Shown here: positions 92 to 59,630 of the stretch, one piece after another
Layout of the letters: each line of letters starts with the position of its first letter
Numbering within the stretch: position 1 is the first letter of the stretch
Source: Cryobacterium fucosi
GTDB lineage: Bacteria > Actinomycetota > Actinomycetes > Actinomycetales > Microbacteriaceae
Length of the DNA stretch: 64,000 nucleotides
Assembly: GCF_004403515.1 (NCBI RefSeq)
Contig: NZ_SOHH01000056.1
Span: 3,653 to 67,652 of the forward strand
Direction of reading: 5' to 3'
Notes under the pieces: generated by a model
What the model was told of the DNA's origin: nothing
What the model saw: only the letters and a program-made list of their open reading frames with translations
Databases searched by the model: none
Translations under genes and position numbers: made by a program

Positions 92-267
92 ATGAGCGAC
101 ACCAGCGCCCGCCGGTCGCTGCCGGGCCTGACGTATCCCGAGGAGCACCTGAGGCGTCTCGCCCGAGACCTGACCGTGAAGTTCACGGGTGCCGATCTAC
201 CCCCGGCAAGACGTACCAGGACTGGGCGCTGAGGGACCCGTACGGCCTGTCCCTCGATGAGGTGCGT
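92..267 (+). pseudogene. Decayed arsC-like gene (N- and C-terminal pieces in different frames)
   Basis: An ATG at 92 opens a short frame whose product (YPEEHLRRLARDLTVKFTG) resembles the N-terminal helical region found ahead of some actinobacterial ArsC domains. It stops at about 232. In another frame, 205-267 encodes GKTYQDWALRDPYGLSLDEV, very like the conserved ArsC C-terminal segment (xDW.L.DP.G...DEVR). The catalytic Cys region between the two pieces is missing and nothing intact follows. I read this as an internal deletion plus frameshift of a second arsC copy directly behind the first. Confidence 0.5.
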
Positions 268-784
268 GTGAGATCGATACCGGACCGGGTCGCGGGAAGA
301 GCGGTCGACAGGTCGAGCACACTTCGCCGTCTTCACCAGCCGTCACGGAACGGTCCCGGCCGGCCACGACTCGGCTTTCGCTCGCCAGTCGCTCGAGCAA
401 CGCCCAGGAGAGCAAAGCGATCGCGACTACCGCGACGACCGGGCGAACGGGACCGTCCAGGAGGGGCACAGCAGTGCGCACATCCGTCGAGAGATAGAGC
501 AAGATCCCACCGAGCACGGGCCAGCGCAGATCGCACACAGTTGCGGCCGCGCCGATCGGGGCATCGAAATAGCCCGCGACGACCAGGCCGACCAGGCCCG
601 ACCCCGCGGCGACAACAAGGTAGCCCCACCACGAACCGGGAAACGTGACCGATCCGCCGACGAACCCCACGGTGCCCGAGGCGACCACCACCGCAACGGT
701 CACGGCGACGGAGACGCCGCCTGCGATCATCCGTCGCTTGGCGGGCCAGGCTCGCAGTTCTCTCACCGTGCCGGGAATGTTCAT
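197..784 (-). CDS. Multi-pass membrane protein of unknown function, probably with an aberrant C-terminus
   Basis: 195 codons from ATG at 784. The start overlaps the stop of the upstream membrane-protein gene in an ATGA arrangement, so the two are probably translationally coupled. About four hydrophobic segments fall between residues 20 and 130, with a lone Cys at the end of the third. I do not recognise the family. The last ~55 residues are low-complexity, Arg/Pro/Ser-rich and are read antisense through the arsC relic at 92-267. The natural stop was therefore probably lost when this junction formed. Function unknown; the context suggests a partner of the CPVC-containing membrane protein. Confidence 0.5.
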   Translation of the reverse strand: MNIPGTVRELRAWPAKRRMIAGGVSVAVTVAVVVASGTVGFVGGSVTFPGSWWGYLVVAAGSGLVGLVVAGYFDAPIGAAATVCDLRWPVLGGILLYLSTDVRTAVPLLDGPVRPVVAVVAIALLSWALLERLASESRVVAGRDRSVTAGEDGEVCSTCRPLFPRPGPVSISHAPHRGTGRTGPSAPSPGTSCRG

Positions 785-1338
785 GCGCCGACTGACTCCG
801 TGATCGGCTCGGCCGCGGCGAGGCCGCAGGAACTCTCTCGGGTGAGGCGCGCGTGCAATGCCCAGCCGAGCAGCACGATGGATGCGCCGGCGAGGTACGG
901 CTGCACCGGCTCGAGGAACTGCATCGCCCCGCTTGCCCCGAGGGCCAGGAGCACGATCTTGTTGCAGACGGGGCAGCCGACCGCGAAGAAGGTGATCATC
1001 CAGCCGGCCAGGCCGAGGCGGCCCTCCGAGCGACTGGGCGCCGCCGCCTGCGGGTAGGCGACGTAGGTGGCGGAGACGAGTCCGGCGAGGATCGCGCTCA
1101 CGGCGAGCACCGGCCAGGACCAGGCCGTCGGGGCAACCTCGCGGGAGAAGAACGGCGTGTCGATCAGGTCGGTCGGAATCGCGATCACCAGGTAGGTGCC
1201 GACCGCGGTGGCCAGGGCGATCCACCAGCGGCGGGCCGACCAACGCCGGAGGGACCCGCCCGCGATCAGGAAGGAGCCTGCCAGTCGTGACGCGGGTGAC
1301 CGCGCTGAGTCGACGGCGGCCGTTCGTTCGCTCTGCAT
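781..1338 (-). CDS. Membrane protein with a GCPVCNK motif in a transmembrane segment, CstR-operator controlled
   Basis: 185 residues if started at ATG 1338, which has a GAGG six bases upstream; in-frame ATG 1350 and TTG 1374 are less well supported. The protein has four to five hydrophobic segments, and the motif FAVGCPVCNKIVLLALG lies in or next to the third. A Cys-x-x-Cys pair at a membrane surface suggests thiol/disulfide or metal chemistry, but I cannot name the family. Two CsoR-family operators lie just upstream (1384-1419), between this gene and divergent cstR. That places it in the sulfide/persulfide or metal response. It is coupled to the next membrane-protein gene by ATGA. Confidence 0.6.
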   Translation of the reverse strand: MQSERTAAVDSARSPASRLAGSFLIAGGSLRRWSARRWWIALATAVGTYLVIAIPTDLIDTPFFSREVAPTAWSWPVLAVSAILAGLVSATYVAYPQAAAPSRSEGRLGLAGWMITFFAVGCPVCNKIVLLALGASGAMQFLEPVQPYLAGASIVLLGWALHARLTRESSCGLAAAEPITESVGA

Positions 1339-1383
1339 CGCTGGCCTCATCACAGGTAGGAACTGAAAACCCAAAGAAAATTC

Positions 1384-1419
1384 ATACCCTAAGGGGTATT
1401 TTTATACCGTACGGGGTAT
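1384..1419. promoter_or_regulatory. Tandem CsoR/CstR-family operators in the divergent cstR promoter
   Basis: Two 16-base dyads, ATACCCTAAGGGGTAT (1384-1399) and ATACCGTACGGGGTAT (1404-1419), start 20 bases apart between the membrane-protein gene and cstR. They match the TACCC...GGGTA pattern used by the CsoR/RcnR/CstR family. The same pattern recurs at 4437, 4529, 5644, 5679 and 6360. Autoregulation of cstR and co-control of the divergent gene is the likely role. Confidence 0.75.
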
Positions 1420-1487
1420 TCTATTGAGGGTCAACCTTGACCGGGCCTTCTCCCGTCGAAACCTCAGATCAGCACAGGAGCACCCGA

Positions 1488-1853
1488 ATGGGATCGTCAC
1501 CAGACTCTGCGCCGCACTTCGCAGCTCCCTCGGCATCCCCCCGCGACGAACCGGCTGCCGCTGCACCCGCATCGACGAAGCCCGACGACCTGCGCAAGAC
1601 CGTCAACCGGCTCAAACGCGCGCAGGGACAGTTGGCCGCGGTCATCGCCGCCGTCGAATCCGGAGCGGACTGCCGGGCCGTCGTCACGCAGCTCGCGGCG
1701 GTGTCCAGCGCGATCGACCGCGCGGGCTTCACGATCATCTCCACCGCGATGAAGGAATGCCTCACCGACACCGAGACCGGCACCGGCAGGGACGGAATAA
1801 AGAAGCCCCTCCGGGTCGAGGAGCTCGAGAAGTTGTTCCTGGCCCTGTCCTAG
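1488..1853 (+). CDS. cstR: CsoR/RcnR-family regulator of the CstR (persulfide-sensing) type
   Basis: 121 residues from ATG 1488, chosen because AGGAG stands seven bases upstream; an in-frame ATG at 1437 has no such site. The DUF156 core begins near residue 32 after a Pro/Ala-rich leader. The copper sensor CsoR uses Cys, His and Cys spaced x24 and x3. Here the two cysteines are present (about C62 and C91, 29 apart) but the His position is Ala (A87). Two cysteines without the His is the pattern of CstR, which forms di- and trisulfide bridges with sulfane sulfur and leaves DNA. Neighbouring sulfur genes and matching operators agree. The exact inducer is inferred. Confidence 0.85.
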   Translation: MGSSPDSAPHFAAPSASPRDEPAAAAPASTKPDDLRKTVNRLKRAQGQLAAVIAAVESGADCRAVVTQLAAVSSAIDRAGFTIISTAMKECLTDTETGTGRDGIKKPLRVEELEKLFLALS

Positions 1854-1874
1854 GCTGACGTGGGCGGTGCCCAG

Positions 1875-2639
1875 TCAGCCGATCAGCGCCTGTGCGACCA
1901 CATAGGCCGCGACGGCCAGCACCAGGAGGGCGAAGCCCCGCTTGAGGGCCGTGTCGGACAGACCCCGGCCAAGGCGGCCCGCCACCAGGGACGCGCCCAT
2001 GGCAGCCGCTGAGAACGCGACCGTGACCGCCCAGTCGAGCTGGACGTCGCCGAGGTGCGCGGCGAATCCGGCGACGGAATTGATGACGATGATGACCAAC
2101 GAGGTGCCCACCGTCACGCCCATCGGCAGGCCGAGGACCAGCGTGAGCGCCGGCACGATGAGGAATCCCCCACCGACACCCAGCAGTCCGGTGAGAAAAC
2201 CGACCACCGCACCGGTGGCAAGAGCCCTGGGCAGGCAGCTACGCCAGTTGACGCCTCCACCCGGAAGGGCGCAGGGACCACCCGTCGACTTGGTCGGAAG
2301 GAACATCCGCACGCCGGCGATGATCATGATCACGGCGAAGGCCCCGAGCAGCACCCGCTGGTCGAGCATCCGATTGACCATCGTGCCCAGATAGGCGGTG
2401 GCGACACCGGCCGCGCCGACGATCACGGCCAGACGCCAGTTCACGCCGCGGCGCAGCCGCGGGAGCACCGCAACGGCGGAGGCGGCCCCGACCACGATCA
2501 GGGAGGTCGGGATGGCCTCGGACAGCGGCAAGCCCACGCCGTAGACGAGGGCGGGGACAGCGAGAATCGACCCGCCCCCGCCGACCAGGCCCAGCAACGC
2601 CCCGACGATCAGACCCAGGATGAGGGCCGTGACGATCAC
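1875..2639 (-). CDS. TauE/SafE-family sulfite/organosulfur permease
   Basis: 254 residues from a GTG at 2639 that overlaps the stop of the rhodanese gene by four bases (GTGA), so it is coupled to it; a longer in-frame ATG at 2681 would run into that gene. The protein has about eight membrane segments in two related halves. Each half opens with a Gly-rich loop, GLVGGGGSILAVPAL near residue 16 and GLLGVGGGFLIVPAL near residue 155, as in the TauE/SafE (DUF81) family. These carriers move sulfite, sulfoacetate or related anions. In a CstR module the likely job is export of sulfite or thiosulfate made from persulfide. Confidence 0.85.
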   Translation of the reverse strand: MIVTALILGLIVGALLGLVGGGGSILAVPALVYGVGLPLSEAIPTSLIVVGAASAVAVLPRLRRGVNWRLAVIVGAAGVATAYLGTMVNRMLDQRVLLGAFAVIMIIAGVRMFLPTKSTGGPCALPGGGVNWRSCLPRALATGAVVGFLTGLLGVGGGFLIVPALTLVLGLPMGVTVGTSLVIIVINSVAGFAAHLGDVQLDWAVTVAFSAAAMGASLVAGRLGRGLSDTALKRGFALLVLAVAAYVVAQALIG

Positions 2640-2944
2640 GGAAGCTGGGGCAGAACCAGGGGAAGGCCCTCGGCCGCCCACTCAACCATGCCTCCCGTCA
2701 TCGTGTGCGCGTCGAACCCGGCCTCGACCAGGTGCTCCGCGGCGGCGGCGCTTCGACGCCCGCTCCGGCACACGACAACGACGGGGCGCGTATCCAGGGC
2801 CGCGTAGCTCTCCGGAATCATGCCCAGCGGGATGTGGCGAGCGCCCGGAATCGTCCCGTCGATCAGCTCCTCGGTCTCGCGAACGTCGACGATCTGCGCT
2901 TCGCCGAGCCGGGTGAATACCTGTTGGGGGGTGAGTTCCATCAT
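2636..2944 (-). CDS. Single-domain rhodanese (sulfurtransferase)
   Basis: 102 residues from the first ATG of an ATGATG pair at 2944, with GGAAAGG a few bases upstream. It is one compact rhodanese domain with the active-site loop VVVCRSGRRSAAAA (Cys near residue 62). The preceding IPGARHIPLG segment is typical of the fold. Such enzymes carry sulfane sulfur as a cysteine persulfide and pass it to thiols or sulfite. It sits in the order cstB-like / rhodanese / tauE, with a GTGA overlap to tauE. A cytosolic role in persulfide disposal is likely; the sulfur acceptor is unknown. Confidence 0.9.
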   Translation of the reverse strand: MMELTPQQVFTRLGEAQIVDVRETEELIDGTIPGARHIPLGMIPESYAALDTRPVVVVCRSGRRSAAAAEHLVEAGFDAHTMTGGMVEWAAEGLPLVLPQLP

Positions 2945-3030
2945 GAATGCCTTTCCGATGAGGGGTAGGTGCGGTATCTCCACCACAAGACCCGGGAGAG
3001 CCAGGCCAGCGCAACGACGCCGATCAGGAT
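2941..3030 (-). other. Possible 29-residue membrane peptide frame between cstB-like gene and rhodanese
   Basis: In the frame used by neither neighbour, 3030-2941 reads ILIGVVALAWLSRVLWWRYR... and ends at a TGA inside the rhodanese ATGATG. One hydrophobic helix followed by basic and aromatic residues looks like a small membrane protein, and the stop/start overlap looks designed. However, I find no ATG, GTG or TTG start for it. It may be a broken remnant, or the gap may simply be 78 bases of spacer. Confidence 0.2.
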
Positions 3031-4386
3031 CGCTGCTCTGCCATCGGCACCCCGGCCGCTTCGGCATCGCCGAAGGACGCGTCGACGTGCACGACGTCCC
3101 GGCCCGCGCGCTGCAGGAGACTGGCGGCAACCCCGGCGCGGTAGCCGGACCCGCAGTGGACCCAGATCGTGCCCGCCGGGATGTCGTCCATCCGGAAGAG
3201 GAGCTCGTGCAGGGGCACGTTCACCGCGCTGAGCAGGTGGGACTCGGCGAACTCGTCGGTGCGTCGCGTGTCCAGGAGCACGTCGTCTGCGGCACGATCG
3301 CGCATCAGTTCCGCCCAGCCCACGCGCGGGTAGGAGGCGATCGGGGCATCCGGGGCCAGTGCGTGCGGCTCGGTGCCGATGGAGGCATCCGGCGAATCGA
3401 TGCCGATCCGGGACAGGTCACGGATCGCGTCTTCAACGTCGGCGTGCGCGCCGACCAGGGTCAGCTGCTCGTTCCAGGGCAGCACCCAGCCGAGGTAGGT
3501 GGTGAAGTTGGAACCGTTGCCGTATTCGAAACTCACGGCGCCTTGCAGGTGGTTGCTGGAGAACGCGACCCGGTTGCGCAGGTCGACGACCCACTCACCG
3601 TCGGCCAGCCGCCGGGTCAGTTCGGCGGCATCCAGCGATTCGGGCACCTGAAGGTTCGCCGGACCGGGACCCTGGATGTTGGCCGGCGCCATGTGCGCGT
3701 AGTACGAGGGGTAGGCGGTGAGGTTGGCGATCAGGTCGGCGACGAAGTGCCCCTCATCGGCGTCGGTCAGGGCGTGGTTCGCCGTGAGCTGCTCGCCGAT
3801 GGTGGACGAGCCCGCCCCGGTGGCGGGGCCGCTGGAGCAGAACGAGCCGAAACCGTGCGTCGGGAAGAGCGCGGCGTCGTGCTCGGCCTCGTGCACAAGC
3901 TTGCGCACGGACGCGTACTGGTCGTGAGTGAGCCCGACCGTGTCCGTCTCGGCGACGAGGTCGGTGCGGCCGACCGATCCGAACAGCAGGCTTCCGCCGG
4001 AGAACACGGCCTCGGTGGTGCCATCGCTGACGATGTAGGAGACGTGGGTGTGCGTGTGCCCCGGGGTGGCGACGACGGCGACGCTGAGGGTGCCGACCTG
4101 GATCACCTGGCCGTCCGTGACCGGCTCCCGGTCGAATTTCACGGGGTCGGCGGCCGTTGACCAGGTACTTCGCACCGTGCGCCCTGGCGAGCTCGTAACC
4201 GCCGGTCACATAGTCATTGTGCAGGTGGGTCTCTGCCACGTGGGTGATCGCGACCCCGGCTTCGCGGGCGGCGGCGTCCACCCGGTCGGTGTCGCGTTGC
4301 GGGTCGATGACCAGCGCAACGGCGCCGTCATGCACCAGGTAGCTGCGGTCTCCCAGTTGCGGGGTTTCGATAACGATGACATCCAT
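3024..4386 (-). pseudogene. CstB-like persulfide dioxygenase-rhodanese fusion, interrupted by a one-base frameshift
   Basis: The ATG at 4386 has GGAGGA upstream. The first ~78 codons encode the metallo-beta-lactamase N-terminus with ETHLHNDYVTGG. Near 4150 the frame shifts by one: the observed aacggccgccgac has one G more than aac-gcc-gcc-gac, which would continue as NAADPVKFDREP. After correction the product is ~453 residues: dioxygenase domain, a rhodanese domain without the active Cys (WVVDLRNRVAF region), then an active rhodanese with HCGSGYRAG. This three-part layout is that of CstB, which oxidises persulfides and releases thiosulfate. The rest of the gene is intact, so this is either a very recent mutation or a sequencing error. 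If real, the operon lacks its main enzyme. Confidence 0.85.
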
Positions 4387-4436
4387 GGTTCGAAGTCCTC
4401 CAGGTCTCAATGCGGATCGGTCCTACCGTTGTCAAG

Positions 4437-4452
4437 ATACCCCCTAGGGTAT
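4437..4452. promoter_or_regulatory. CstR-type operator upstream of the cstB-like gene
   Basis: ATACCCCCTAGGGTAT lies 50 bases upstream of the cstB-like start and is the exact reverse complement of the operator in front of trxA (4529-4544). It belongs to the operator series listed at 1384-1419. It probably controls leftward transcription of the cstB-rhodanese-tauE operon. Confidence 0.8.
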
Positions 4453-4520
4453 TAGGAAGCAAACCGGATGCGATCGAGCCGACCCGGGGGCCGGCCCGCA
4501 CGCGACAGCCACCCAAGTAT

Positions 4521-4547
4521 TTGCACAAATACCCTAGGGGGTATATT
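4521..4547 (+). promoter_or_regulatory. trxA promoter with embedded CstR-type operator; transcript probably leaderless
   Basis: TTGCAC (4521-4526) and TATATT (4542-4547) are spaced 15 bases and frame the operator ATACCCTAGGGGGTAT (4529-4544). A repressor bound there would cover the promoter core. The -10 ends only eight bases before the ATG at 4556 and no Shine-Dalgarno is present, so the message probably begins at or next to the start codon. The short spacer is a weakness of the call. Confidence 0.6.
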
Positions 4548-4555
4548 CTGCATGC

Positions 4556-4924
4556 ATGGCTACCATTGACATCACCGAAAAGACGTTCGACGCGACCATC
4601 ACCGACTCCAGCATCGTGCTCGTGGATTTCTGGGCCGGCTGGTGCGGACCCTGCCGCATGTTTGCGCCGACCTTCACCGCGGCGTCGGAGAAGCACCCGG
4701 AGATCGTCTTCGCCAAGGTCGACACCGAGGCCGAACAGGGTCTGGCCGCTGCGGCCGGCATCCGTTCCATTCCCACCCTGATGGCGTTCCGGGACAAGGT
4801 CCTCGTGTTCTCCCAGCCCGGAGCGCTCAACGCCTCCTCCCTGGACGAGGTCATCGCCGGAGTCCAGAACCTGGACATGGCGGCCGTGCACGCCGGCATC
4901 GCCGCCCAGCAAGCCTCCGCCTGA
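4556..4924 (+). CDS. trxA: Thioredoxin
   Basis: 122 residues with the classic active site FWAGWCGPC (C30 and C33) and the cis-Pro segment RSIPTL near residue 77. It is slightly longer than a standard thioredoxin because of a C-terminal Ala-rich tail. It reduces disulfides and persulfides in the cytosol and could regenerate the rhodaneses or release sulfide from CstR. The start at 4556 directly follows a CstR-type operator, so the gene probably belongs to the persulfide response rather than being the housekeeping thioredoxin. It is divergent from the cstB-like operon and followed by a decayed transporter gene. Confidence 0.92.
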   Translation: MATIDITEKTFDATITDSSIVLVDFWAGWCGPCRMFAPTFTAASEKHPEIVFAKVDTEAEQGLAAAAGIRSIPTLMAFRDKVLVFSQPGALNASSLDEVIAGVQNLDMAAVHAGIAAQQASA

Positions 4925-4994
4925 CCGGTCGGCCGTCAGGCAGCACGGTGCATCCCCGGTAACTACTGCGAAACGCCGTGCCGGCTCGCCCAGG

Positions 4995-5165
4995 CAAGTT
5001 GCGCTGGGCCTGAAGCAGAACCTCGCCCGGTTCCTGCTCCTCGTGGCCGCCAACGCCGGCGCCTCGCTCACCTGGCCGGCCGCCGCCGTGTTGCTCGGGG
5101 CCGGAACCGCCATGGTCTACCCGACCCTGCCGGTCGCCATCGGAGACGTCGCCCACCCCGAATGA
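4995..5165 (+). pseudogene. Relic of a major-facilitator transporter
   Basis: A frame ending at TGA 5163-5165 reads LLGAGTAMVYPTLPVAIGDV, the conserved segment of sulfur- or metal-island MFS carriers (GAGTAxVYPTLxAAIGDVAHP). It is preceded by one hydrophobic stretch. No start, no upstream domain and nothing after the HP(E) end remain; an intact carrier would have ~400 residues. The fragment fills the space between trxA and a terminator and shows that this module once carried an exporter. Confidence 0.55.
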
Positions 5166-5206
5166 AGCGCTCGGTCCGTCGGCGTCTCCCGCCTCGCAGC
5201 ACCACC

Positions 5207-5242
5207 GGTGAGGGGCGCGCCCAGCCGTGGGCGCCCCTCACC
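5207..5242. terminator. Strong bidirectional hairpin
   Basis: GGTGAGGGGCGC (5207-5218) pairs perfectly with GCGCCCCTCACC (5231-5242) across a 12-base loop. It lies between the rightward trxA/MFS relic and the leftward lipoprotein rhodanese, where a two-way terminator is expected. There is no long T tract, as is common in actinobacteria. Confidence 0.75.
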
Positions 5243-5266
5243 CGTGTCCGCGAAGAGCCGACCGTG

Positions 5267-5632
5267 TTAGGGAGTCGTCACGATGGCGAGGCCGGTCGAG
5301 CCGGTGGCTGCGGACATGGCACCGGCATCCGTCACCTGGGAATAGCCCAGTCCGGCCATCCGCGCGGCGGCCGCAGCCGAACGGTTGCCAGAGCGGCAAT
5401 ACACCACGTACGCGCCAGACTTCGGCAGTGCCCCGATCTGGCCGTCGAAGTCGGGTGACTGCACGTCGATGTTGATCGCGCCTTCAAGGTGACCGGCCGC
5501 GTACTCCCCCGGGGTGCGTACGTCGATCACGACGGTATCGGCGGCCAATGACGCCGGCGCAGCGGACGAACACGCGGTCAGGCCGAACAGGACGGTGAGG
5601 ACAAGGCCAAGGGTTGTGATCACTGTTTTCAT
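5267..5632 (-). CDS. Lipoprotein rhodanese
   Basis: 121 residues. The N-terminus is a lipoprotein signal: MKTVITTLGLVLTVLFG followed by the lipobox LTAC, so the mature protein starts at Cys 21 and is anchored outside the membrane. The rhodanese domain keeps VIDVRTPGEYAAGHLEGA and the active loop YVVYCRSGNRS. It probably handles sulfane sulfur on the cell surface. Two CsoR-family operators lie in its promoter (5643-5660 and 5679-5694), tying it to the same regulon as trxA. It is transcribed alone and ends at the hairpin 5207-5242. Confidence 0.88.
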   Translation of the reverse strand: MKTVITTLGLVLTVLFGLTACSSAAPASLAADTVVIDVRTPGEYAAGHLEGAINIDVQSPDFDGQIGALPKSGAYVVYCRSGNRSAAAAARMAGLGYSQVTDAGAMSAATGSTGLAIVTTP

Positions 5633-5642
5633 GGTGCCATAC

Positions 5643-5694
5643 TATACCCCCTAGGGTATAAAGGGCCAGAAGTCCGAAATACCCCCTGACGTAT
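5643..5694. promoter_or_regulatory. Two CstR-type operators upstream of the lipoprotein rhodanese
   Basis: TATACCCCCTAGGGTATA (5643-5660) is a near-perfect dyad 10 bases upstream of the start codon. A degenerate copy, ATACCCCCTGACGTAT, follows at 5679-5694, with operator starts 35 bases apart. Together they suggest cooperative repression by the CstR-type protein. Confidence 0.75.
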
Positions 5695-5761
5695 GACATC
5701 AGGTTCGCGGCCGCGCACGCACCGACTTGACCCGACGGAGAACGGCATGGACGACACCCGG

Positions 5762-6157
5762 CTACGAATCCATGCGGCGCCGCTGCCCGCGGAGCGCCAA
5801 TGCGTACCAAGCGATCAGTCGCTCCACGGCGTCCACGCCGCCGGCCAGGTAGCCGGCCCACCTGACACCGTCGCGCCCGGGGTTGTCGACTTGGGCCGTC
5901 CAGCGATCGCGCAGGTCGCGCAGCACCTCACGGGCGGCCGCGTCATCCTCAGGACCGAGCGGGAGACGACGGATGGCCCGGCGCGCTTCGGCCAGGACCG
6001 CGACCTCGCCCTCGTAGTACTTCACCGCCGGAACCGGTCCGGATCCCCGGGACAACGAGCACAGCGACTGGCCGCCGGTGACGGTGCCCAGTCGCTTGAG
6101 CGCCTCGTTCTCGCGAGCCGAGATGCTCGCGGTGAGCGCCTGACGGCCGCCGACCAC
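5762..6157 (-). CDS. Uncharacterised protein downstream of the small Cys-rich gene
   Basis: 131 residues if the GTG at 6157 is used; no strong ribosome site marks it, so the start is uncertain. The frame is the same as that of the 38-residue gene upstream and follows its stop by 16 codons. The middle is charged and probably helical (AVKYYEGEVAVLAEARRAIRR and following), with one Cys (SLCSLSRG), and the C-terminus is Arg-rich. I do not recognise the family. Co-transcription with the small gene from the operator-bearing promoter at 6359 is likely. Confidence 0.5.
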   Translation of the reverse strand: MVGGRQALTASISARENEALKRLGTVTGGQSLCSLSRGSGPVPAVKYYEGEVAVLAEARRAIRRLPLGPEDDAAAREVLRDLRDRWTAQVDNPGRDGVRWAGYLAGGVDAVERLIAWYALALRGQRRRMDS

Positions 6158-6205
6158 CTCGTCAGCTCGGTTTCGGCAGCCGGGACGCGCGGCCTCCGCA
6201 GGAGA

Positions 6206-6322
6206 CTAGTTGCAGGTGCAACGCTGCTCGGGCGGGACATCGGCCATGACGCTGGCGACGTGCTCGCCACATCCGGCCCAGGTGATCTTGCCGCATCGGC
6301 TGCAACGGACTGCACTGCACAT
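6206..6322 (-). CDS. 38-residue Cys-rich small protein (zinc-ribbon-like)
   Basis: ATG 6322 with AAGGAG seven bases upstream, stop TAG at 6206. The peptide has CSRCG near residue 7, a single Cys-Gly in the middle and CTC just before the last residue, with one His between. That is the pattern of a tiny metal-binding ribbon conserved in actinobacteria next to CsoR-type regulators. Its promoter carries a perfect operator (6359-6376). A role as a metal or persulfide buffer or sensor accessory is plausible but unproven. Confidence 0.75.
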   Translation of the reverse strand: MCSAVRCSRCGKITWAGCGEHVASVMADVPPEQRCTCN

Positions 6323-6358
6323 GAGTCACTCCTTCATTTGGGCGAACATAGACTTCAG

Positions 6359-6376
6359 TATACCCCCTAGGGTATA
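6359..6376. promoter_or_regulatory. CstR-type operator in front of the 38-residue gene
   Basis: TATACCCCCTAGGGTATA, identical to the site at 5643-5660, lies 37 bases upstream of the small gene. On the other strand it sits immediately before an ATG (6379) that opens the P-type ATPase relic, so it may once have been a divergent promoter. Confidence 0.8.
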
Positions 6377-8493: not shown

Positions 8494-9220
8494 CGCTCCC
8501 GAACGGCAGGGCGACAAGGCTTTTCAGCGCCCCGTCCAGCCCGGTGGACTTGCTCGGGTCCAGGGTGAGCGCCGCGACGACAATGAGCACCGCCACGACG
8601 GCCAGCGCGATGCCCTTGGCCACATAGCCGGCGATTCCCAGCGCGACGATCGCACGGCCGACCGTTCCGCTGGGCAGGTCGAGATCGGCGGTGAACTTCT
8701 TGAGGGCGCCCTTCCTCACGAAGTAGAAACCGATGCCCAGCACGATGAGGCCTCCCACGAGGAGCAGGGCTACCCCGCCCGGAGCCCGCATCAGTGCGGC
8801 GCTGGCATCACGGGCGCTGGTGGCCGAGTCCGCGGTTCCTCCGGTGGCGAAGGTCACCGCGGTCACCGCGAGAAGAATGTAGACGGCGGCCTTGCTGATT
8901 TCGACGACCCGGTGAGACCACTTTCGCTTCGGATCGGAGCCCGGCATCAGGAAGGCTCCCAGGAGCAGCCACAGGCCGAGGGCGAACAGCCCGACCACCA
9001 CGGTCCAGAGCACGAACACACCGCCGGGGCTTTCCGCGAGCTGCCCGAGCGCACCGGACTGGTCGGCGCTTCCCCCGCCGCCGACTGCCACGGCGATGGC
9101 GAGGCCGGCGATGAGAATGTGCAGGAGGCCATTGACGGCGAAGCCCAGCCGGGCCAACGCCTGCAACGCCCCACTCCCTTTGGCTGCGCGGGCGATTTTG
9201 GCGGCTGGATCACTGTTCAC
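8411..9220 (-). CDS. DUF1206 membrane protein
   Basis: 269 residues from a GTG at 9220. About six membrane helices form three repeated pairs, each beginning with a LARLGFAVNGLLH / ISKAAVYILLAV / ALGIAGYVAKGIAL type segment, which is the pattern of DUF1206. The function of the family is unknown. It is convergent with the PAP2 gene and overlaps its 3' end by 83 bases, which is unusual for two membrane-protein genes and implies that C-terminal residues of one are constrained by the other. Confidence 0.8.
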   Translation of the reverse strand: MNSDPAAKIARAAKGSGALQALARLGFAVNGLLHILIAGLAIAVAVGGGGSADQSGALGQLAESPGGVFVLWTVVVGLFALGLWLLLGAFLMPGSDPKRKWSHRVVEISKAAVYILLAVTAVTFATGGTADSATSARDASAALMRAPGGVALLLVGGLIVLGIGFYFVRKGALKKFTADLDLPSGTVGRAIVALGIAGYVAKGIALAVVAVLIVVAALTLDPSKSTGLDGALKSLVALPFGSVILSVIGVGLVAYGVYCFARAWRARLH

Positions 9221-9312
9221 GGGCTCAGCTTAGGTGCGTCGGCCACTCAGGTGGAAGGAACCGGGGCCGATTGGACCGGCAGACCGAATCGGCGGTCTGC
9301 CGGTGCCACCCG

Positions 9313-10683
9313 CTACTTGAGGATGCGAATGAGCTTTTTGTTGGCGAACTCCGCGATTCCGAAGCGTCCCAGCTCCCGGCCGAATCCGGACCTCTTCACA
9401 CCGCCGAAGGGAAGCTCCGGGCTGTCCAGGAGCGAACCGTTGATGAAGACCATCCCGGCGTCGATCAGGTCGGCCACGCGCAGGGCCTGCTCCGGATCCG
9501 TCGTGAACAGGTAGGACCCGAGCCCATAGGGGATGTCGTTGGCCACCTCCACCGCCTCGGCCTCGTTCTGCACGCGGTAGATCGCGGCGACCGGGCCGAA
9601 GAACTCTTCCCGGTAGGCGTCGCTCTTCGGGGACACACCGGTGAGAACCGTCGGCGAGAAGAAGGCGCCCTTGCGGCTGCCCCGGGCGTGAACGGTTGCC
9701 CCCTGGGCCTCGGCGCGCTGGAGCTGTTCCTCCAGGCCCTCGGCGGCGCCGAGGGAGGAGAGCGGGCCGAGCGTGGTGTCCGTCGACGTGGGGTCCGCGG
9801 GGATGTTGCCGGTGATCTTCGCCGTGAAGGTCTCCACAAAGGCTTCGAACAGGCCGTCGATCACGATGAATCGCTTGGCGGCGTTGCAGGATTGGCCTGA
9901 GTTGTCCAGGCGCGCGGCGACGGCCGCGTCGACGGCCTCCTCGAGGTCGTCGGTGCTGAGCACGATGAACGGGTCGGATCCGCCCAGTTCGAGTACCACC
10001 TTCTTGAGGTTGCGGCCCGCGACCTCGGCGACGGCCGCTCCGGCACCCTCCGAACCGGTCAGGGAGACGCCATGCACGCGCGGATCGGCGATGATGTCGG
10101 CGATCTGGGCGTTGGACGCGTAGAGGTTCTGATACGCGCCTTCGGGGAAGCCGGCATCCGCGAAGATCTGCTCGATCGCGGCGGCGGATTCGGGACACTG
10201 CGAGGCGTGCTTGAGCAGGATCGTGTTGCCGAGCACCAGGTTGGGGCCGGCGAAGCGGGCGACCTGGTAGTACGGGAAGTTCCACGGCATGATGCCCAGC
10301 AGCACGCCCAGGGACGCATTGCGAATGAAGGCCGAGCCTTCGCCGCCGAACAGCTCAATCTGTTCGTCAGCGAGGAACGCCTCGCCGTGGCTCGCGTAGT
10401 AGGAGTAGATGTCGGCGGAGAAGTCCACCTCGCCGAGGGCCTGTGCGATGGGCTTGCCCATTTCCCGCACGATGAGTTCGGCCAGGTGCTCGCGCCGCTC
10501 GGTGTGCAGGTCGGCCACGCGCTGCATGAGGGCCGCGCGCTCGGCCACCGAGGTGCCGCGAGAGAACTCACTGTGGGCACGGTCGGCCGCCCCGATGGCG
10601 GCCCTCACCTCATCGTCGGTTGCAAGCGGAAAGCTCGATTCGCTGACTCCGGTGGCCGGATTTGTGACTGCGTACTTGTTCAT
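9313..10683 (-). CDS. gabD: NAD(P)-dependent succinate-semialdehyde dehydrogenase
   Basis: 456 residues from ATG 10683, preceded by GGAGAGATC; an in-frame upstream ATG at 10731 has no such site. Aldehyde dehydrogenase motifs are in place: PWNFP (N135), GS-E in [19 protein letters not shown] (general base E232) and GQSCNAAKR (nucleophile C266). It oxidises succinate semialdehyde to succinate at the end of GABA breakdown, or a similar small aldehyde. It is a single-gene unit, and no GABA transaminase is adjacent. The exact substrate is inferred from family resemblance. Confidence 0.85.
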
Positions 10684-10944
10684 GATCTCTCCATAGGTGT
10701 CGTCGTTAACGCCAATCGAAATTGGAACCATCCCTGCCAGCGCAGGACCACTCGCGTGTGGTTACAGTCTGCCGTAGCGGGCTCCGCGGTCGCGCCGGAT
10801 CGGGATGCGATGATGCGCGCTGGTAAGGTATCATGACCAAGTTGCCCCGGACCCCGGCAGCTCCGCCATCGTTTTCATCGCCAGATCAGGGGCACACATC
10901 GTGACACTTCCAGGTTGTCCACCCATGAATCTGACGGTCACCGC

Positions 10945-12051
10945 GTGAGCGTCGACGACAGCGCCGCCGCCCCGGTTCGCGGACGGTACCACTTGCTCTC
11001 CGCCATCGGGCGCGGGGGCTTGGGAACGGTCTATCGAGCCCGGGATGAATCCCTGGGGAGGGACGTCGCGGTCAAGATCTTCGACGCGAACGCCACCGAC
11101 GAGGTCGACGTCCAGGTGCAGGAGAACGAAGTCAATCTGCTGGCTGCGCTCAGCCACCACAGCCTGGTCACCCTGTTCGACGCCGGCGTGGATCGAACCG
11201 ATCCCGGCCGGCCGCGCATCTTCTTTGTGATGGATCTCGTCGAGGGCTCGGACTTGAAGGCGCGCCTCGAGCAGGGTGCCCTGTCGACCAGGCAGATCGC
11301 CCAGATCGGCTACGACCTGGCCGAAGGGATTGAGTACCTTCACCACCGCGGTGTCGTGCACCGGGACATCAAGCCGGCCAACATCCTTCTCGCCGATTAC
11401 AGCGACGACGGCACGAGGGAGCGAGCCAAACTCACCGATTTCGGGGTTGCCCTGGTTCGAGGTCACGAGCGCACAGCCGACGAGAACGTCACGACGGGCA
11501 CTGCCGCTTACCTGAGCCCGGAGCAGGCGCGAGGGGAAACGCTCGGGTCATCCAGCGATGTCTACTCTCTCGGTCTCGTTCTACTCGAGTGCTTCACCGG
11601 GGAGACCGCCTTTCCCGGCTCGGCGATTCCGGCCGCCCTGGCCAGGCTCACGCACGATCCGGCGATCCCCGAGGATCTCGACCCCCGGTGGAAGTCGTTG
11701 CTCTCTGCCATGACGGCACGGCAGCCGGCGGACCGCCCGCTGATCAACGACCTCGTTCTCGCGCTTCATCAGACGATTGTCGCTGAGACCGGACGGCACA
11801 GGGAAGCCGATGCCCCGATTCCCGAGGAGGAGAGCAGGGCACCGGAGGCCGAGCTCGTCGACGTCCCGCCGGACGGCGCTTTGGACCGGATCACGGCGAT
11901 GGCCGCGCTCGCTTTCTCTACCGACGAGGAGGTGGCGCCGCTGCAGGACCTTGCCGCCCTGGTCATGAGCGAGCTCGAACTGCGGCTGGAGAACCGGCGC
12001 GCCGGTCCCGATCCGGATCCGAGTGCGCCCACGGACTCGCCCACGAGTTAG
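10945..12051 (+). CDS. Serine/threonine protein kinase with a collapsed GAF-like tail
   Basis: 368 residues if started at GTG 10945; a TTG at 10915 is an alternative. Kinase motifs run in order: GRGGLGTVYRA (~22), VAVK (K44), HRDIKPANILL (D141), DFG (~165) and SPEQARG (~192), then the alpha-F DVYSLGLVL. The domain ends near residue 280. No transmembrane helix or PASTA repeat follows, so it is cytosolic. The tail carries DRITAMAALAF and LQDLAALVMSELELRL, segments that normally begin and end a GAF domain in related proteins. Here they are nearly abutted, so the sensor core looks deleted. Confidence 0.88.
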   Translation: MSVDDSAAAPVRGRYHLLSAIGRGGLGTVYRARDESLGRDVAVKIFDANATDEVDVQVQENEVNLLAALSHHSLVTLFDAGVDRTDPGRPRIFFVMDLVEGSDLKARLEQGALSTRQIAQIGYDLAEGIEYLHHRGVVHRDIKPANILLADYSDDGTRERAKLTDFGVALVRGHERTADENVTTGTAAYLSPEQARGETLGSSSDVYSLGLVLLECFTGETAFPGSAIPAALARLTHDPAIPEDLDPRWKSLLSAMTARQPADRPLINDLVLALHQTIVAETGRHREADAPIPEEESRAPEAELVDVPPDGALDRITAMAALAFSTDEEVAPLQDLAALVMSELELRLENRRAGPDPDPSAPTDSPTS

Positions 12052-12165
12052 GCGATCCGGACCCTCGGCGATGGCACGACGATTCGGGTTGCCGTCAGCG
12101 GCCCCGATTCCGGTGGGGATCTCGAAGATCACCATGCCCGCGATGAAGAGGCCCGGCCCGGCGGT

Positions 12166-12474
12166 TCAGCCGTCCAGGTAGGAGACCAGATTGGCCGGAA
12201 TGCCGAGCACCAGTCCATAGGCGTCGTGCGAGAGCGAGAGGCCCCTCGGATGCCGAGACACCTGCCAGCCGTGCAGGTCGATGCCGCGAGTGAGCGCCTC
12301 CAGCAGCGACTCCTCCCGTTCCTCGGCGGTGCCCGGTTCGCGGTCCGTGCTCAGGATCACCCGGTAGCGCACGTCGTCGGCCGAAAGGTCGGCCATCTCC
12401 TCGAGGCGACGGTCGACCTCGAGGGCGACGGGAGCGAGGTACAGATCGGCCAGGTCGTGTGGTCGTATGGGCAC
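12166..12474 (-). CDS. Small uncharacterised protein (102 residues)
   Basis: The start is a GTG at 12474 with a perfect AAGGAGG five bases upstream. The product is acidic in its first half (LEVDRRLEEMADLSADDVRYRVIL) and has GIDLHGWQVSRHPRGLSLSHD near residue 70, with no signal or membrane segment. I do not recognise a family. It is divergent from the large LuxR-type regulator (start 12580), sharing a ~100-base promoter region, so the two may be co-regulated. Confidence 0.65.
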   Translation of the reverse strand: MPIRPHDLADLYLAPVALEVDRRLEEMADLSADDVRYRVILSTDREPGTAEEREESLLEALTRGIDLHGWQVSRHPRGLSLSHDAYGLVLGIPANLVSYLDG

Positions 12475-12579
12475 AACCGCCTCCTTCAGTTGCTTCACGA
12501 TAGCGGGGCATTCGGTTGTGCGATAGCCGCCGCGACCCGTTCTGCACGACTTCCTCGGCGCCCTCCCTAGGATGAGGTC

Positions 12580-15357
12580 ATGCCGACGCCCGTCCTGGCC
12601 ACGAAACTCTTCGTTCCCGCGCTGCGACCTCAGGTCGTTTTTCGCCCGCGCCTGATCGAGCGTCTGCGAGAGGGCCTCCGACCGGGCCGGAAGCTGACCC
12701 TCATCTCGGCCCCGGCCGGCTTCGGCAAGACAACGCTTCTCGGCGAGTGGATCGTTGACAGCCAGCGACGTGACGCCACCGCCCGGGTGGCCTGGCTGTC
12801 GCTGGACGACGGCGACAGCGACCCGACCCGCTTCCTGACCTACCTGGTCGCCGCCCTGCAGAGTGCGGTGCCCGGGGCCGGTTCGGTAACCGTCGGCTCG
12901 GCCGCGGCACCGGCCGGTCAGCCGTCGTCGGTCGAGCAGACGTTGACGGCCCTCCTCAACGAGGTCGCGCAGGCGCCGCACCAAACCGTCCTCGTGCTGG
13001 ATGACTTCCATCTGATCGGCGGCGCTCCCGTCCAGGCCGCGGTCACCTTCCTGCTCGGCCACCTTCCCATGAACCTGCACCTGGCGATAGCCGGCCGCTC
13101 CGATCCCCCGCTCCCCCTCGCTCGGCTGCGGGCCAGGGCCGAACTGACCGAGTTGCGTGCGGCCGATCTGCGTTTCACGCCAGAGGAATCCGCCGCGTTC
13201 CTCAACCAGGTGATGGGCCTCCGGCTCTCGGCCGACGACATCGCCGCCCTCGACACCCGCACGGAGGGCTGGATCGCCGGCCTGCAGCTGGCCGCGCTGT
13301 CCATGCGCGACAGATCGGACATCGCCGGGTTCATCCGGGCGTTCACCGGCAGCCACCGCTTCGTGATCGACTATCTGGTCGAAGAGGTTCTGCAGCGCCA
13401 GCCGGATGACGTGCGCGGCTTCCTCTTCCAGACCGCCGTGCTCGACCGGCTCAGCGGCCCCCTCTGCGACGCCGTCACCGGGCAGGCGAGCGGCACCGAG
13501 ATGCTCGCGGCCCTGGAGCGGGACAACCTGTTCATCACTCCTCTGGACGACGACCGCCGCTGGTATCGCTACCACCACCTTTTCGCCGACGTTCTCCGGG
13601 CCCGGTTCCCCGCCGAGTGGCGCGATCGCCTACCGGACCTCCATCGCCGCGCCAGCGAGTGGCACGAGCGGAACGGCCCACCGGAGGACGCGGTCAGGCA
13701 TGCGCTCGCCGCCTCGGACTTCGACCGGGCCGCGGACCTCATCGAGGGCGCTGTGCCCGCCCTGCGCAAGGGCAGACAGGACGCGACCCTGCTCGAGTGG
13801 CTCACGCAGCTGCCCGCCGAGGTTGTGGCTCGCCGGCCCGTGCTCAGCGTCTACCTCGCCTGGTCGATGCTCATTTCCGGCGACCTGGATGCCGTCGAGC
13901 TCCGGTTGAGGAACGCCGAGGAAGGCCTGCGCGCGGCGGCCGACGCGAGCAGCGTGCCCGACGCATCCGTGACCGACCCTGTCGCGGTCGGAGAAGAGCT
14001 ACGGATGCTGCCGGTGATGATCGCCGTCTATCGGGCCTCGCTCGCCCAGGCGCTGGGCGATATGGTCGGCACCGCGGAACACGCACAACGCGCGCTCGAC
14101 CTCACCGAGCCGGGCGATCACTTCGGCCGCGCCGCGGCGGCCGGATTCCTCGGGCTCGCCTCCTGGGCGAACGGCGACCTCGAGGCGGGCCTGCGGGCCT
14201 TCGCCGAGGTCAGGGACAGCCTGCGCCTGGCCGGCAACGCCGCTGACGTGCTCGGCACCACGGTTGTGCTGGCCGACATGCTGATCCCGCTGGGTCGTCT
14301 GCGGGACGCGCGACGGGCCTACGAAGACGCCCTTCAGCTCGCGAGCGCGCAGGGCGATCCGGCGCCGCAGCCGATGGGCGACCTGCACGTGGGCCTCAGC
14401 GAGCTGCACCGCGAGCGCAACGAACTGGATGCCGCCACGGAGCACCTGCTGGCAGCCCGGACGCTGGGCGAGCGCGCGTCGTTGCCCGAGAACCGGTATC
14501 GCTGGTTCGTCGCGATGGCGCGGGTCAGGGAGGCCGAGGGAGAACCCGACGCGGCACTCGACCTGCTCACCGAGGCGGAACTTCTGTACGCGCGAGGCTT
14601 CTTCCCCGAGGTGCGCCCGATCGCGGCGATGAGGGCACGCGTGTGGATCTCACAGGGCCGGTTGGCCGAGGCGCGGGAGTGGGCGAACGGGCAGGGGCTT
14701 TCCGCCGCCGAAGACGTCACCTACCTGCACGAGTTCGCTCAGATCACCCTGGCGAGGCTGCTGATCGCCGAGCATCGGGCCGATCCGAAGCGCGGCGCGA
14801 TTCGCGAGGCCCTGGGACTGCTGGACCGGCTCCTTCAATCGGCAGAGGCAGGGCGCCGCACGGGAAGCGTGAACGAGGTCCTGGTGTTGCAGGCGCTCGC
14901 CCATCAGGCGTACGGACAGCTGCCCCTGGCGCTCCTGCCCCTGGAACGCGTGCTCGGCCAGGCCGAACCGGAAGGCTACCTGCGCCTCTTCGCTGATGAG
15001 GGCGCTCCCCTGGCAGGGCTTCTGCGTGAGGCCGCACAACGGGGAATCCTGCCGAACCAGGTTTCCCGGCTGCGCCGCGCATTCCGACCGGGCAACGGCG
15101 GCACCGCCACACCCCAGCCCGCTGCGGAGGCGCTGAGCGAACGCGAACTGCACGTGCTCAGGCTGTTGGCAACCGAGCTCAGCGGGCCCGAGATCGCCCG
15201 CGAACTCTACCTGTCCTTGAACACCGTTCGCACCCACACCAGGCACATCTTCGGCAAGCTCTCCGTGAACAGCCGACCGGCTGCCGTGCGCCGCGCTGAC
15301 GAGCTGGGCTTGCTCCAGCGCCGATCCCGCGACAAGGACTCTGACAGGCAAGAGTGA
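12580..15357 (+). CDS. Large ATP-binding LuxR-family regulator (MalT/LAL type)
   Basis: 925 residues. An N-terminal STAND ATPase has the Walker A SAPAGFGKTTLLG (~48), VAWLSLDDGDSDPTRFL (~75) and Walker B VLVLDDFHLIGG (~145). A long helical TPR-like region (about 380-820) follows. The C-terminal LuxR HTH reads LSERELHVLRLLA...ARELYLSLNTVRTHTRHIFGKL. MalT-type proteins bind an inducer sugar and ATP, oligomerise and activate transcription. The start at 12580 has GATGAGG just upstream. The inducer is unknown. The next gene downstream, on the other strand, is a secreted GH16 glucanase. Confidence 0.9.
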   Translation: MPTPVLATKLFVPALRPQVVFRPRLIERLREGLRPGRKLTLISAPAGFGKTTLLGEWIVDSQRRDATARVAWLSLDDGDSDPTRFLTYLVAALQSAVPGAGSVTVGSAAAPAGQPSSVEQTLTALLNEVAQAPHQTVLVLDDFHLIGGAPVQAAVTFLLGHLPMNLHLAIAGRSDPPLPLARLRARAELTELRAADLRFTPEESAAFLNQVMGLRLSADDIAALDTRTEGWIAGLQLAALSMRDRSDIAGFIRAFTGSHRFVIDYLVEEVLQRQPDDVRGFLFQTAVLDRLSGPLCDAVTGQASGTEMLAALERDNLFITPLDDDRRWYRYHHLFADVLRARFPAEWRDRLPDLHRRASEWHERNGPPEDAVRHALAASDFDRAADLIEGAVPALRKGRQDATLLEWLTQLPAEVVARRPVLSVYLAWSMLISGDLDAVELRLRNAEEGLRAAADASSVPDASVTDPVAVGEELRMLPVMIAVYRASLAQALGDMVGTAEHAQRALDLTEPGDHFGRAAAAGFLGLASWANGDLEAGLRAFAEVRDSLRLAGNAADVLGTTVVLADMLIPLGRLRDARRAYEDALQLASAQGDPAPQPMGDLHVGLSELHRERNELDAATEHLLAARTLGERASLPENRYRWFVAMARVREAEGEPDAALDLLTEAELLYARGFFPEVRPIAAMRARVWISQGRLAEAREWANGQGLSAAEDVTYLHEFAQITLARLLIAEHRADPKRGAIREALGLLDRLLQSAEAGRRTGSVNEVLVLQALAHQAYGQLPLALLPLERVLGQAEPEGYLRLFADEGAPLAGLLREAAQRGILPNQVSRLRRAFRPGNGGTATPQPAAEALSERELHVLRLLATELSGPEIARELYLSLNTVRTHTRHIFGKLSVNSRPAAVRRADELGLLQRRSRDKDSDRQE

Positions 15358-15468
15358 CATCATCGACGGACAGGGCTGGCGCCGCTGGATCATCCGCGAC
15401 ACTGCTCGACGCCGGCGACTACTCTGCCCGACGCTGTGCCATCAGAGCGGCAAAGCCTGTAGGGCGAT

Positions 15469-15499
15469 AGCGGGAGGCCCGGGCATGCGGGCCCCCGCT
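15469..15499. terminator. Hairpin between the LuxR-type gene and GH16
   Basis: AGCGGGAGGCCCG and CGGGCCCCCGCT form a long GC stem (one bulge/mismatch) around a six-base loop, followed by TTTCT on the plus strand. It lies between two convergent genes and probably terminates both. Confidence 0.6.
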
Positions 15500-58401: not shown

Positions 58402-58863
58402 CTAAATGCGACAAATGGAGAGGACGGTCAGGCTCGGGCGGTAGATATCGAGTGTCGGGCCGCTGAGCAGACGAACGATGTGTCCGCCTGCGTCGAGCAG
58501 CCGCCGATACAGGGCCGGCAACCAGGCAAGCATGATCAGCGAAGCGAGTACGAGCACGATGGTGCAGGTGATCGCGAGGATTGCACAGTCCAGAATGCAG
58601 TCAGGGCAGCCGAGCACCCCCAGGCCGGTGTGTGCGGCAACGGCGACAGCAGCGACAGCGACAGCAGCGACGACGGGCTCGACACCCACATGGGGTCTTT
58701 GGCCGGACGCGACTACAGTTCCGCCTGACTCATGCGCGGCATGCGTTGAGTTCATGGCGAGCAAACCGAACAAGATCGCGGCCATGGCGATCAGGGCGAC
58801 AAACGTCGACCAGAGGGCAGGCTTCCGGAGGTGTGCCGCGCGTGTGGTGCGATCGACCTTCAT
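58402..58863 (-). CDS. DUF6153 family membrane protein
   Basis: 153 residues with an N-terminal helix ([22 protein letters not shown]) followed by THAAH, a Cys-containing loop [11 protein letters not shown], a second helix and the family ending [12 protein letters not shown]6153 proteins accompany DUF305 in actinobacterial copper loci; function unknown. The CPDC...C loop between helices could bind metal. A CsoR-type operator lies 40 bases upstream of the start. It probably forms an operon with DUF305. Confidence 0.8.
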
Positions 58864-58903: not shown

Positions 58904-58920
58904 ATACCCCCCTACAGTAT
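58904..58920. promoter_or_regulatory. CsoR-type operator upstream of DUF6153-DUF305
   Basis: ATACCCCCCTACAGTAT (reverse ATACTGTAGGGGGGTAT) has the A/T ends and G tract of copper-type CsoR operators. It is 41 bases from the DUF6153 start. Together with 59611 it forms the island's copper operator type. Confidence 0.65.
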
Positions 58921-58944: not shown

Positions 58945-59156
58945 GAAACGCATAGCAGCAGATCACGGCGCACGCGGGTCAGGTCGCTGGCCTCGATCGC
59001 GACGTCCGTTCCGGATCCCATCGCGATGCCGAGGTCGGCGGTGGCCAGTGCGACGGCGTCGTTCACATCCGATTGAGTTTATTCTCGATCCGGACCGCGG
59101 CAGGAGGCGCAGGTCATCCCGCCGACGAGAAGATCGACCTGCTCCCACTCAGGGTG
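58945..59156 (-). pseudogene. copA: copA relic: N-terminal metal motif joined to C-terminal ATPase end
   Basis: On the minus strand VDLLVGGMTCASC (start of an HMA domain) is followed, after an extra base, by RIENKLNRM and a stop. Directly after, [20 protein letters not shown] and [10 protein letters not shown], the C-terminal hinge region of a copper ATPase, begins. Some 500 residues between are missing. The order CopZ-copA is normal, so this is the island's own copper pump destroyed by internal deletion plus frameshift. No intact copper ATPase is in the window. Confidence 0.8.
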
Positions 59157-59518: not shown

Positions 59519-59557
59519 TACCCCAGGGGTAGCTTTACCCTATACCCCTAGGGGGTA
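59519..59557. promoter_or_regulatory. Two CsoR-type operators between copZ and csoR
   Basis: TACCCCAGGGGTA (59519-59531) and ATACCCCTAGGGGGTA (59542-59557) stand upstream of copZ. Starts are 23 bases apart. They probably bind CsoR released by Cu(I). Confidence 0.7.
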
Positions 59558-59610
59558 CTCGGTCAAAATGAGCCGAATGCACGTGACCACCCAATATGCC
59601 GTGCCGATGG

Positions 59611-59630
59611 ATACCGCCGGGGGGTATAAT
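59611..59630 (+). promoter_or_regulatory. csoR promoter and operator
   Basis: ATACCGCCGGGGGGTAT (59611-59627) overlaps a perfect -10 TATAAT (59625-59630), 75 bases before the csoR start. Autoregulation is the obvious reading. Confidence 0.65.

Follow-up and report, generated by a model that had tools for sequence, protein, structure and literature searches.

A predicted CstR-type persulfide regulon in Cryobacterium fucosi, with operators that differ in spacer length from copper-type sites

The stretch of Cryobacterium fucosi DNA analyzed here (the window, 64,000 nucleotides, positions 3653-67652 of contig C107 in a 3.44-Mb draft genome of 122 contigs) carries a cluster of sulfur genes in its first 6400 positions, where one inverted repeat recurs upstream of six genes. 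The sequence supports reading this cluster as a persulfide regulon of the CstR type, like that of Streptomyces coelicolor, and the seven dyads in it are very probably operators, bound by one CstR-type repressor or by any of several CstR paralogues that can replace each other. The core of the regulon is of a known kind. The new part is its reach across the genome, a family of Cys-rich peptides and, above all, the apparent separation of persulfide-type operators, with six bases between the half-sites (N6), from copper-type operators, with seven (N7).

The seven dyads had been listed by a sequence-only reading, and they proved to be real, being all the sites in the 64 kb that match ATACC-N6-GGTAT with at most one mismatch. 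Six of them are exact, at 1384-1399 (ATACCCTAAGGGGTAT), 1404-1419 (ATACCGTACGGGGTAT), 4437-4452 and 5644-5659 (both ATACCCCCTAGGGTAT), 4529-4544 and 6360-6375; the one at 5679-5694 (ATACCCCCTGACGTAT) is degenerate and keeps 9 of the 10 half-site bases. Five of them (1384, 4437, 4529, 5644 and 6360) also match the stricter form ATACCC-N4-GGGTAT exactly, compared to 0.00 expected from 100 shuffles, and five matches were found for the pattern ATACCC-N0-3-TAGGGTAT, again with 0.00 expected. In 200 Markov-simulated windows an exact N6 site was absent from 197 and occurred once in 3. The dyads are situated in front of the genes of the cluster, as claimed, and serve six of them, encoding a GCPVCNK membrane protein (TM1), the regulator, a persulfide-dioxygenase-like (PDO-like) protein, a thioredoxin, a rhodanese lipoprotein and a 38-residue peptide, with 17.5 to 150.5 bp from dyad centre to annotated start. 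Two sigma-70-like promoters were predicted between 700 and 6600 (0.4 expected from shuffles), and each is overlapped by an operator, the one at 4520-4547 by the dyad at 4529 and the one at 6385-6357 on the minus strand by the dyad at 6360, which it encloses. Such overlap is expected if the regulator is a repressor.

The regulator itself is a 121-residue protein (1488-1853, plus strand) that matches the DUF156/CsoR domain PF02583 (E=4.1e-20). Its Cys pair is at positions 62 and 91 (61 and 90 in numbering without the Met), 29 residues apart, and an Ala stands at the position of the Cu-ligand His, which gives ligand positions C-A-C and bears out what the sequence-only reading had said of a CsoR paralogue beside the dyads. 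The phmmer matches of the regulator include chains 7mq1 and 7mq3, deposited as csoR, which we take to be CstR. The copper CsoR of Streptomyces lividans has the ligands C-H-C. We rejected the regulator as a Cu(I)-sensing CsoR, as its ligands are C-A-C and not C-H-C, and as all seven sites of the cluster are N6 and none N7; it was also rejected as FrmR, with 40 bits against the NCBIfam model's cut-off of 133. A CsoR domain, the Cys spacing, the lost His, N6 operators at its own and its target promoters, and rhodanese, PDO-like and TauE genes as targets were all found, as in CstR. The CstR-type part of the earlier label "CstR-type sulfide regulon" is thus supported by ligands, spacer, gene content and likeness to the Streptomyces coelicolor regulator ScCsoR. 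We prefer "sulfane-sulfur" or "persulfide" to "sulfide", because no operator of the genome was assigned to a gene for sulfide:quinone oxidoreductase (SQR), although no search was aimed at SQR.

The window also contains a copper locus, where a Cu-type CsoR with ligand positions C-H-C (59705-60031, plus strand) is encoded beside a CopZ-like HMA protein (59149-59469, minus strand, named by eye from its translation). Three N7 dyads were found there, at 58904-58920 (ATACCCCCCTACAGTAT) and 59542-59558 (ATACCCCTAGGGGGTAC), each with one mismatch, and at 59611-59627 (ATACCGCCGGGGGGTAT, exact), whereas the sulfur cluster is free of N7 sites even when one mismatch is allowed. A Cryobacterium arcticum plasmid carries this Cu-type CsoR at 79% identity. 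Behind the dyad at 58904, near the copper regulator, a small membrane protein with CPDC and more Cys is encoded (58402-58863, minus strand).

The relation between regulator type and spacer was analyzed in 102 CsoR-family loci of the phylum, comprising the best PF02583 matches (L193-L250), 40 regions hand-picked for lower scores as a selection from the PF02583 match list (L251-L290), and the four genes of C. fucosi. Classes were assigned from ligand residues only, and the search for dyads took in the whole of each locus (about 3 kb). The results showed a split: the 39 CstR-type loci have an exact N6 site in 23 cases, an exact N7 site in none and a sulfur neighbour in 37, whereas the 60 Cu-type (C-H-C) loci have exact N6 in none, exact N7 in 30 and a sulfur neighbour in none (Fisher 2e-12 for N6 and 1e-8 for N7, uncorrected for kinship of the loci). 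Three C-H-H loci, which had been selected as CstR candidates on their scores, all have N7. With one mismatch allowed, N6 was found in 25/39 and N7 in 1/39 of the CstR-type loci, and N7 in 44/60 and N6 in 3/60 of the Cu-type loci, where shuffles gave means of 0.3-2.7 loci.

These counts bear on the alternative that the dyads are copper operators of a Cu-sensing CsoR and that the cluster belongs to a response to copper and thiol stress. Identical half-sites do occur in the copper locus at 58.9-59.6 kb, one N6 site of the genome precedes a multicopper-oxidase-like gene, and a P-type ATPase occurs in 3/30 N6 loci of the motif-side sample described below. Nevertheless, the regulator lacks the His ligand, and neither an exact N6 site nor a sulfur neighbour occurs in any of the 60 Cu-type loci, compared to sulfur neighbours in 37 of 39 for the CstR type. 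On ligand residues, spacer and gene content together we rejected a copper regulon, which we regard as very improbable.

The persulfide reading was also approached from the motif side, with one site taken per genome from 30 of the 46 genomes with N6 (in the stricter ATACCC/GGGTAT form) and 30 of the 50 with N7, C. fucosi being in both sets. Copper genes adjoin 23/30 N7 sites and sulfur genes none of the 30, and sulfur genes, thioredoxin or the peptide adjoin 22/30 N6 sites, 3 of which also have the P-type ATPase. A similar pattern was seen in 19 named plasmid loci from Bacillota and one Fusobacteriota: of the 9 CstR-type (C-N-C) loci, 8 show TACC-N6-GGTA and none shows N7, and of the 10 C-H-C loci, 8 show N7 and 1 shows N6. 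In Niallia and Cytobacillus both kinds are present together on one plasmid, and the plasmid CstR-type loci of Frigoribacterium and Arthrobacter have N6 only. A Mesobacillus foraminis plasmid (L333:811) has an N6 dyad that immediately precedes a small hypothetical gene, at a distance of about 1.6 kb from a Cu-type csoR; OsmC and DUF302 genes are close by, and DUF302 is also found near the Niallia CstR locus. Published sites fit the split, as ScCsoR recognizes ATACCn6GGTAT (PMC7533328) and the copper CsoR site of Streptomyces lividans (ATATACCCCTNAGGGGTATAT, TACX9GTA; PMC3902906) agrees with N7; a point against is that the ScCsoR paper calls its site highly similar to copper CsoR/RicR sites (PMC7533328). 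We did not find a comparison of the two spacers in searches of an open-access library, a scope that leaves out key Staphylococcus aureus CsoR/CstR work, so that prior notice is possible. Within that scope, the one-base separation of persulfide (N6) and copper (N7) sites suggested by these sequences looks new.

Several observations count against a clean spacer rule. The N7 site in 1/39 CstR-type loci and the N6 sites in 3/60 Cu-type loci, at one mismatch, are at about shuffle level, and an exact dyad was not found in 16/39 CstR-type and 30/60 Cu-type loci of about 3 kb. The neighbour was unrecognised at 8/30 N6 and 7/30 N7 sites, although at one of these eight N6 sites (L048:1501) an SQR-like flavoprotein, identified by eye, follows directly. 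The Cu-type locus on the C. arcticum plasmid has one GTACC-N6-GGTAT in addition to three N7 dyads, and in C. fucosi the site C24:673 (L326:673), one of 15 N6 sites and with a looser centre, precedes a SHOCT-like/multicopper-oxidase-like pair (by eye). Two copper-regulator sites were among the input of the MEME run behind the published N6 consensus (PMC7533328). Furthermore, the counted loci include relatives and are not independent events. Another explanation is that the spacer difference is inherited history, the operator having been kept with its regulator lineage, while insulation comes from other contacts or from effector specificity. Descent could account for regulator type and spacer alike, and loci within a genus are related, with counts uncorrected for kinship; still, both classes share their half-sites, which the exact search imposes by design, and resemble each other in the C/G runs on either side; the split also appears in each of two phyla and, in Niallia and Cytobacillus, within single plasmids; and the C-H-H loci, although chosen by score as CstR candidates, are all N7. 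We consider descent as the whole explanation unlikely, yet with some weight. What we tentatively propose, at clearly less than even confidence in the whole, is that an N6/N7 code insulates persulfide from copper regulons in Actinomycetota and Bacillota, and that a frequent but mostly unannotated output of the persulfide side would be a new family of Cys/His peptides of 38-60 residues, which would buffer sulfane sulfur on a zinc-thiolate site recharged by the co-regulated thioredoxin.

Dyads upstream of six genes in one cluster, as first described, were confirmed in the window, and the sites extend beyond it. Genome-wide, 12 exact ATACCC-N4-GGGTAT sites were found on six contigs, compared to 0 for the reversed control: five in the window, three on C105 and one each on C86, C80, C82 and C56; the looser ATACC-N6-GGTAT form has 15 exact sites. 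Two of the 12 (1384 and C105:15448) are flanked by a CstR gene and TM1, and each of the remaining ten is followed by a thiol/sulfur gene or a peptide gene. The C86 site is in front of a gene for a CoA-disulfide reductase (CoADR)/rhodanese, near a third CstR, the C80 site precedes a CoADR-rhodanese-TusA-DsrE fusion, the C56 site a lone peptide gene and the C82 site a DCC1-like thiol oxidoreductase. Downstream of this last gene, 4Fe-4S and NrfD-like genes (L027, 7701-9637, named by eye) possibly encode a sulfur redox complex. A second, paralogous persulfide cluster is located on C105 (L025, C105:5000-20906, at 8730-15488) and holds two peptide copies, a rhodanese lipoprotein, TM1/TM2, CstR2, TauE, a rhodanese, a PDO-like gene, thioredoxin and DUF4395; its thioredoxin is 81% identical to that of the window, and its PDO-like protein, a different one, 29%. 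Its CstR is found at 97-99% in three Cryobacterium loci.

The genome has four CsoR-family genes, three with Ala at the ligand position (C107, C105 and C86) and one with His (C107:63423). Three CstR-type paralogues mean that the adjacent 121-residue protein may not be the sole binder, and we give an even chance to the variant in which any of the three controls the dyads and the adjacent protein is partly redundant. CstR2 shares 77% identity with CstR1, the regulator of the window's sulfur cluster, and 62% with CstR3, and N6 dyads are present at all three CstR clusters; against this, the dyad centres are not alike between the clusters.

The 38-residue Cys/His-rich peptide (MCSAVRCSRCGKITWAGCGEHVASVMADVPPEQRCTCN, 6206-6322, minus strand) had been named as an unusual member of the regulon, and its place there was upheld, as the genome has four homologous copies, itself included, and each is preceded by an operator, which is exact for three copies and has one mismatch for the fourth. 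Relatives were found in 36/296 sampled genomes of the phylum, own genome included, and in at least 580 confirmed stretches of a species-genome collection. Locus analyses covered the best 80 of these, 75 with a recognisable start; actinobacteria make up most of them, and Acidobacteria, Myxococcota-type and Rubrivirga records are also present, judged by title. A dyad with at least 9/10 matches lies within 200 bp of 32/75 peptide relatives, compared to 41/1977 other open reading frames in the same loci and 0.36% in shuffles (Fisher 1e-29). A PDO, rhodanese, CoADR or TauE relative occurs in 42/80 peptide loci and a CsoR-family gene in 34/80; the 36 CsoR-family proteins have a His ligand in 1 case, another residue in 33 and an unreadable one in 2. 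Tandem peptide genes, with starts about 170-182 bp apart, were seen in L098, L121, L124, L127, L142, L143, L149 and L151.

Positions M1, C2, C7, C10, G17, C18, G19, H21 and C35 of the peptide are invariant. Pfam gave no family for the window peptide and none matching more than one of 31 members (best E 0.034), and for the window peptide no NCBIfam model scored above its cut-off. The peptide is also unannotated in all 30 of the 67 matched plasmid records that were listed, in a gene table that is incomplete; on the Arthrobacter sp. YC-RL1 plasmid NZ_CP013298.1 it lies, with no listed feature, between a CstR-type regulator and metallo-beta-lactamase-rhodanese-rhodanese-TauE genes. As a predicted target of the persulfide regulon with no Pfam model, this large family looks new. 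An AlphaFold model (predicted local distance difference test, pLDDT, 84.5) has a strand-strand-helix order in which CxxC separates the two strands and C18/H21 directly precede the helix, and in this model the peptide looks like a zinc knuckle. Against the PDB, the fold search returned a single match at E 8.7 and the sequence profile a single match at E 0.04. By analogy with metallothionein-3 we infer that the peptide may hold sulfane sulfur on a zinc-thiolate site reset by thioredoxin. The alternative, that it has no link to sulfane sulfur and is only a passenger of the regulon, serving as a zinc-finger adaptor or scavenging metal, has a probability that falls only a little short of even. The conserved Cys/His pattern and the model do resemble a zinc finger, and 43/75 relatives have no operator at their start, as do 22/30 in an earlier sample (dyad at 8/30 loci, own genome's included); yet the peptide is tied to the operator in all four copies of the genome, in 32/75 relatives and at 10/30 motif-side N6 sites, one of them the genome's own.

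TM1 (781-1374, minus strand; an open frame whose start is probably an inner ATG) has dyads upstream, as the sequence-only reading had it, but an operator at this gene is not general. Relatives of the GCP[VT]CN type are present in 20/296 genomes, own included, and of the 22 loci from these 20 genomes, just the genome's own two gave a dyad that matches at 9 or 10 of the half-site bases. Outside the genus, an operator at a TM1 homologue was found in two metagenome-assembled genomes of Nanopelagicales (L101 and L107, 9/10 matches) and in an order-level relative (L031, exact). The members named in that reading are all present, but it left out TM2 (197-784, minus strand), the next gene after TM1, a paralogue of TM1 by homology that lacks CPVC and ends in a C-terminal VCSTC tail; a relative of TM2 also lies beside TM1 in the C105 cluster. 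TM1 shows weak similarity to MerT and was rejected as such (PF02411, 15.6 bits against a gathering score of 32.9). Its model has a mean pLDDT of 69.6, with no PDB match at E <=0.001 (best E 1.2), and a literature search with the motif letters of TM1 and the peptide gave nothing relevant by title and abstract. Our guess is that TM1/TM2 might carry or relay reactive sulfur, or else reducing equivalents, from one side of the membrane to the other.

The remaining genes of the cluster encode a TauE/SafE family permease (1875-2681, minus strand; PF01925, E=8.1e-46), a single-domain rhodanese (2636-2944, minus; PF00581, E=9.9e-18), the thioredoxin (4556-4924, plus; PF00085, E=7.6e-25, and TIGR01068 above cut-off), the rhodanese with a lipoprotein signal (5267-5632, minus; PF00581, E=1e-14, lipobox LTAC read from the sequence) and, behind the peptide, a 131-residue reading frame (5762-6157, minus) with a 32% relative downstream of the peptide in L042. 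One correction concerns the PDO-like gene (3024-4386, minus), a metallo-beta-lactamase/rhodanese gene that is split between two frames at 4150-4175, by draft error or genuine loss. Its halves are in a single frame in 16 of the 20 loci that hold both, and 3 of the 4 exceptions are copies of the window's own gene.

Taken together, we suggest that without sulfane sulfur the repressor would occupy ATACC-N6-GGTAT and block RNA polymerase, and that persulfide or polysulfide would modify the Cys pair (62/91) and release it. Derepression would then allow excess sulfur to be oxidised (PDO-like), transferred (rhodaneses), reduced (thioredoxin) and exported as sulfite (TauE), and would also yield the small Cys/His-rich peptide and the two membrane proteins with their Cys residues. 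The sister Cu-type CsoR, acting on the same half-sites spaced N7, would keep copper and sulfur responses separate within one cell. Copper- and persulfide-sensing CsoR paralogues share fold, Cys ligands and GC-tract operators, which makes their separation in one cell a real question. The spacer rule, if true, would make copper and sulfur operators distinguishable from sequence alone and the regulon searchable; the search led to an overlooked small-protein family (the at least 580 stretches above) as a candidate sulfane-sulfur handler.

The nearest known system is the ScCsoR circuit of S. coelicolor (SCO0620; PMC7533328), which shares a two-Cys CsoR-like regulator, ATACCn6GGTAT promoter fragments tested by electrophoretic mobility shift assay, and control of PDO, rhodanese, TauE and itself. 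It differs in comprising four genes; thioredoxin, peptide, membrane pair and extra clusters are not described in the available portion of that report. The Staphylococcus CstR/cst operon (PMC5480029) likewise has a CsoR paralogue that senses persulfide (a Cu-CsoR occurs in the same genus), a cstB-type dioxygenase, TauE and, in plasmid copies, N6 dyads. In contrast to the Ala here, the lost His is replaced by Asn, and direct control of one operon was suggested (PMC5480029), whereas exact sites are found here on six contigs. The copper CsoR of S. lividans shares half-sites, a type 2 operator and the TAC/GTA inverted repeat, but its TACX9GTA corresponds to N7 and its genes are copper genes (PMC3902906). 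In Bacillus licheniformis, YrkD is a CstR-like repressor over rhodanese, TusA, DsrE, PDO, TauE and thioredoxin genes, although in one cluster, with SQR and NreBC, and the accessible text describes no Cys-rich peptide (PMC9918477). For the peptide, a precedent is metallothionein-3, a small Cys-rich zinc protein that holds sulfane sulfur and is reduced by thioredoxin (PMC12618007); this is a mouse protein and the likeness is one of analogy, with homology not claimed.

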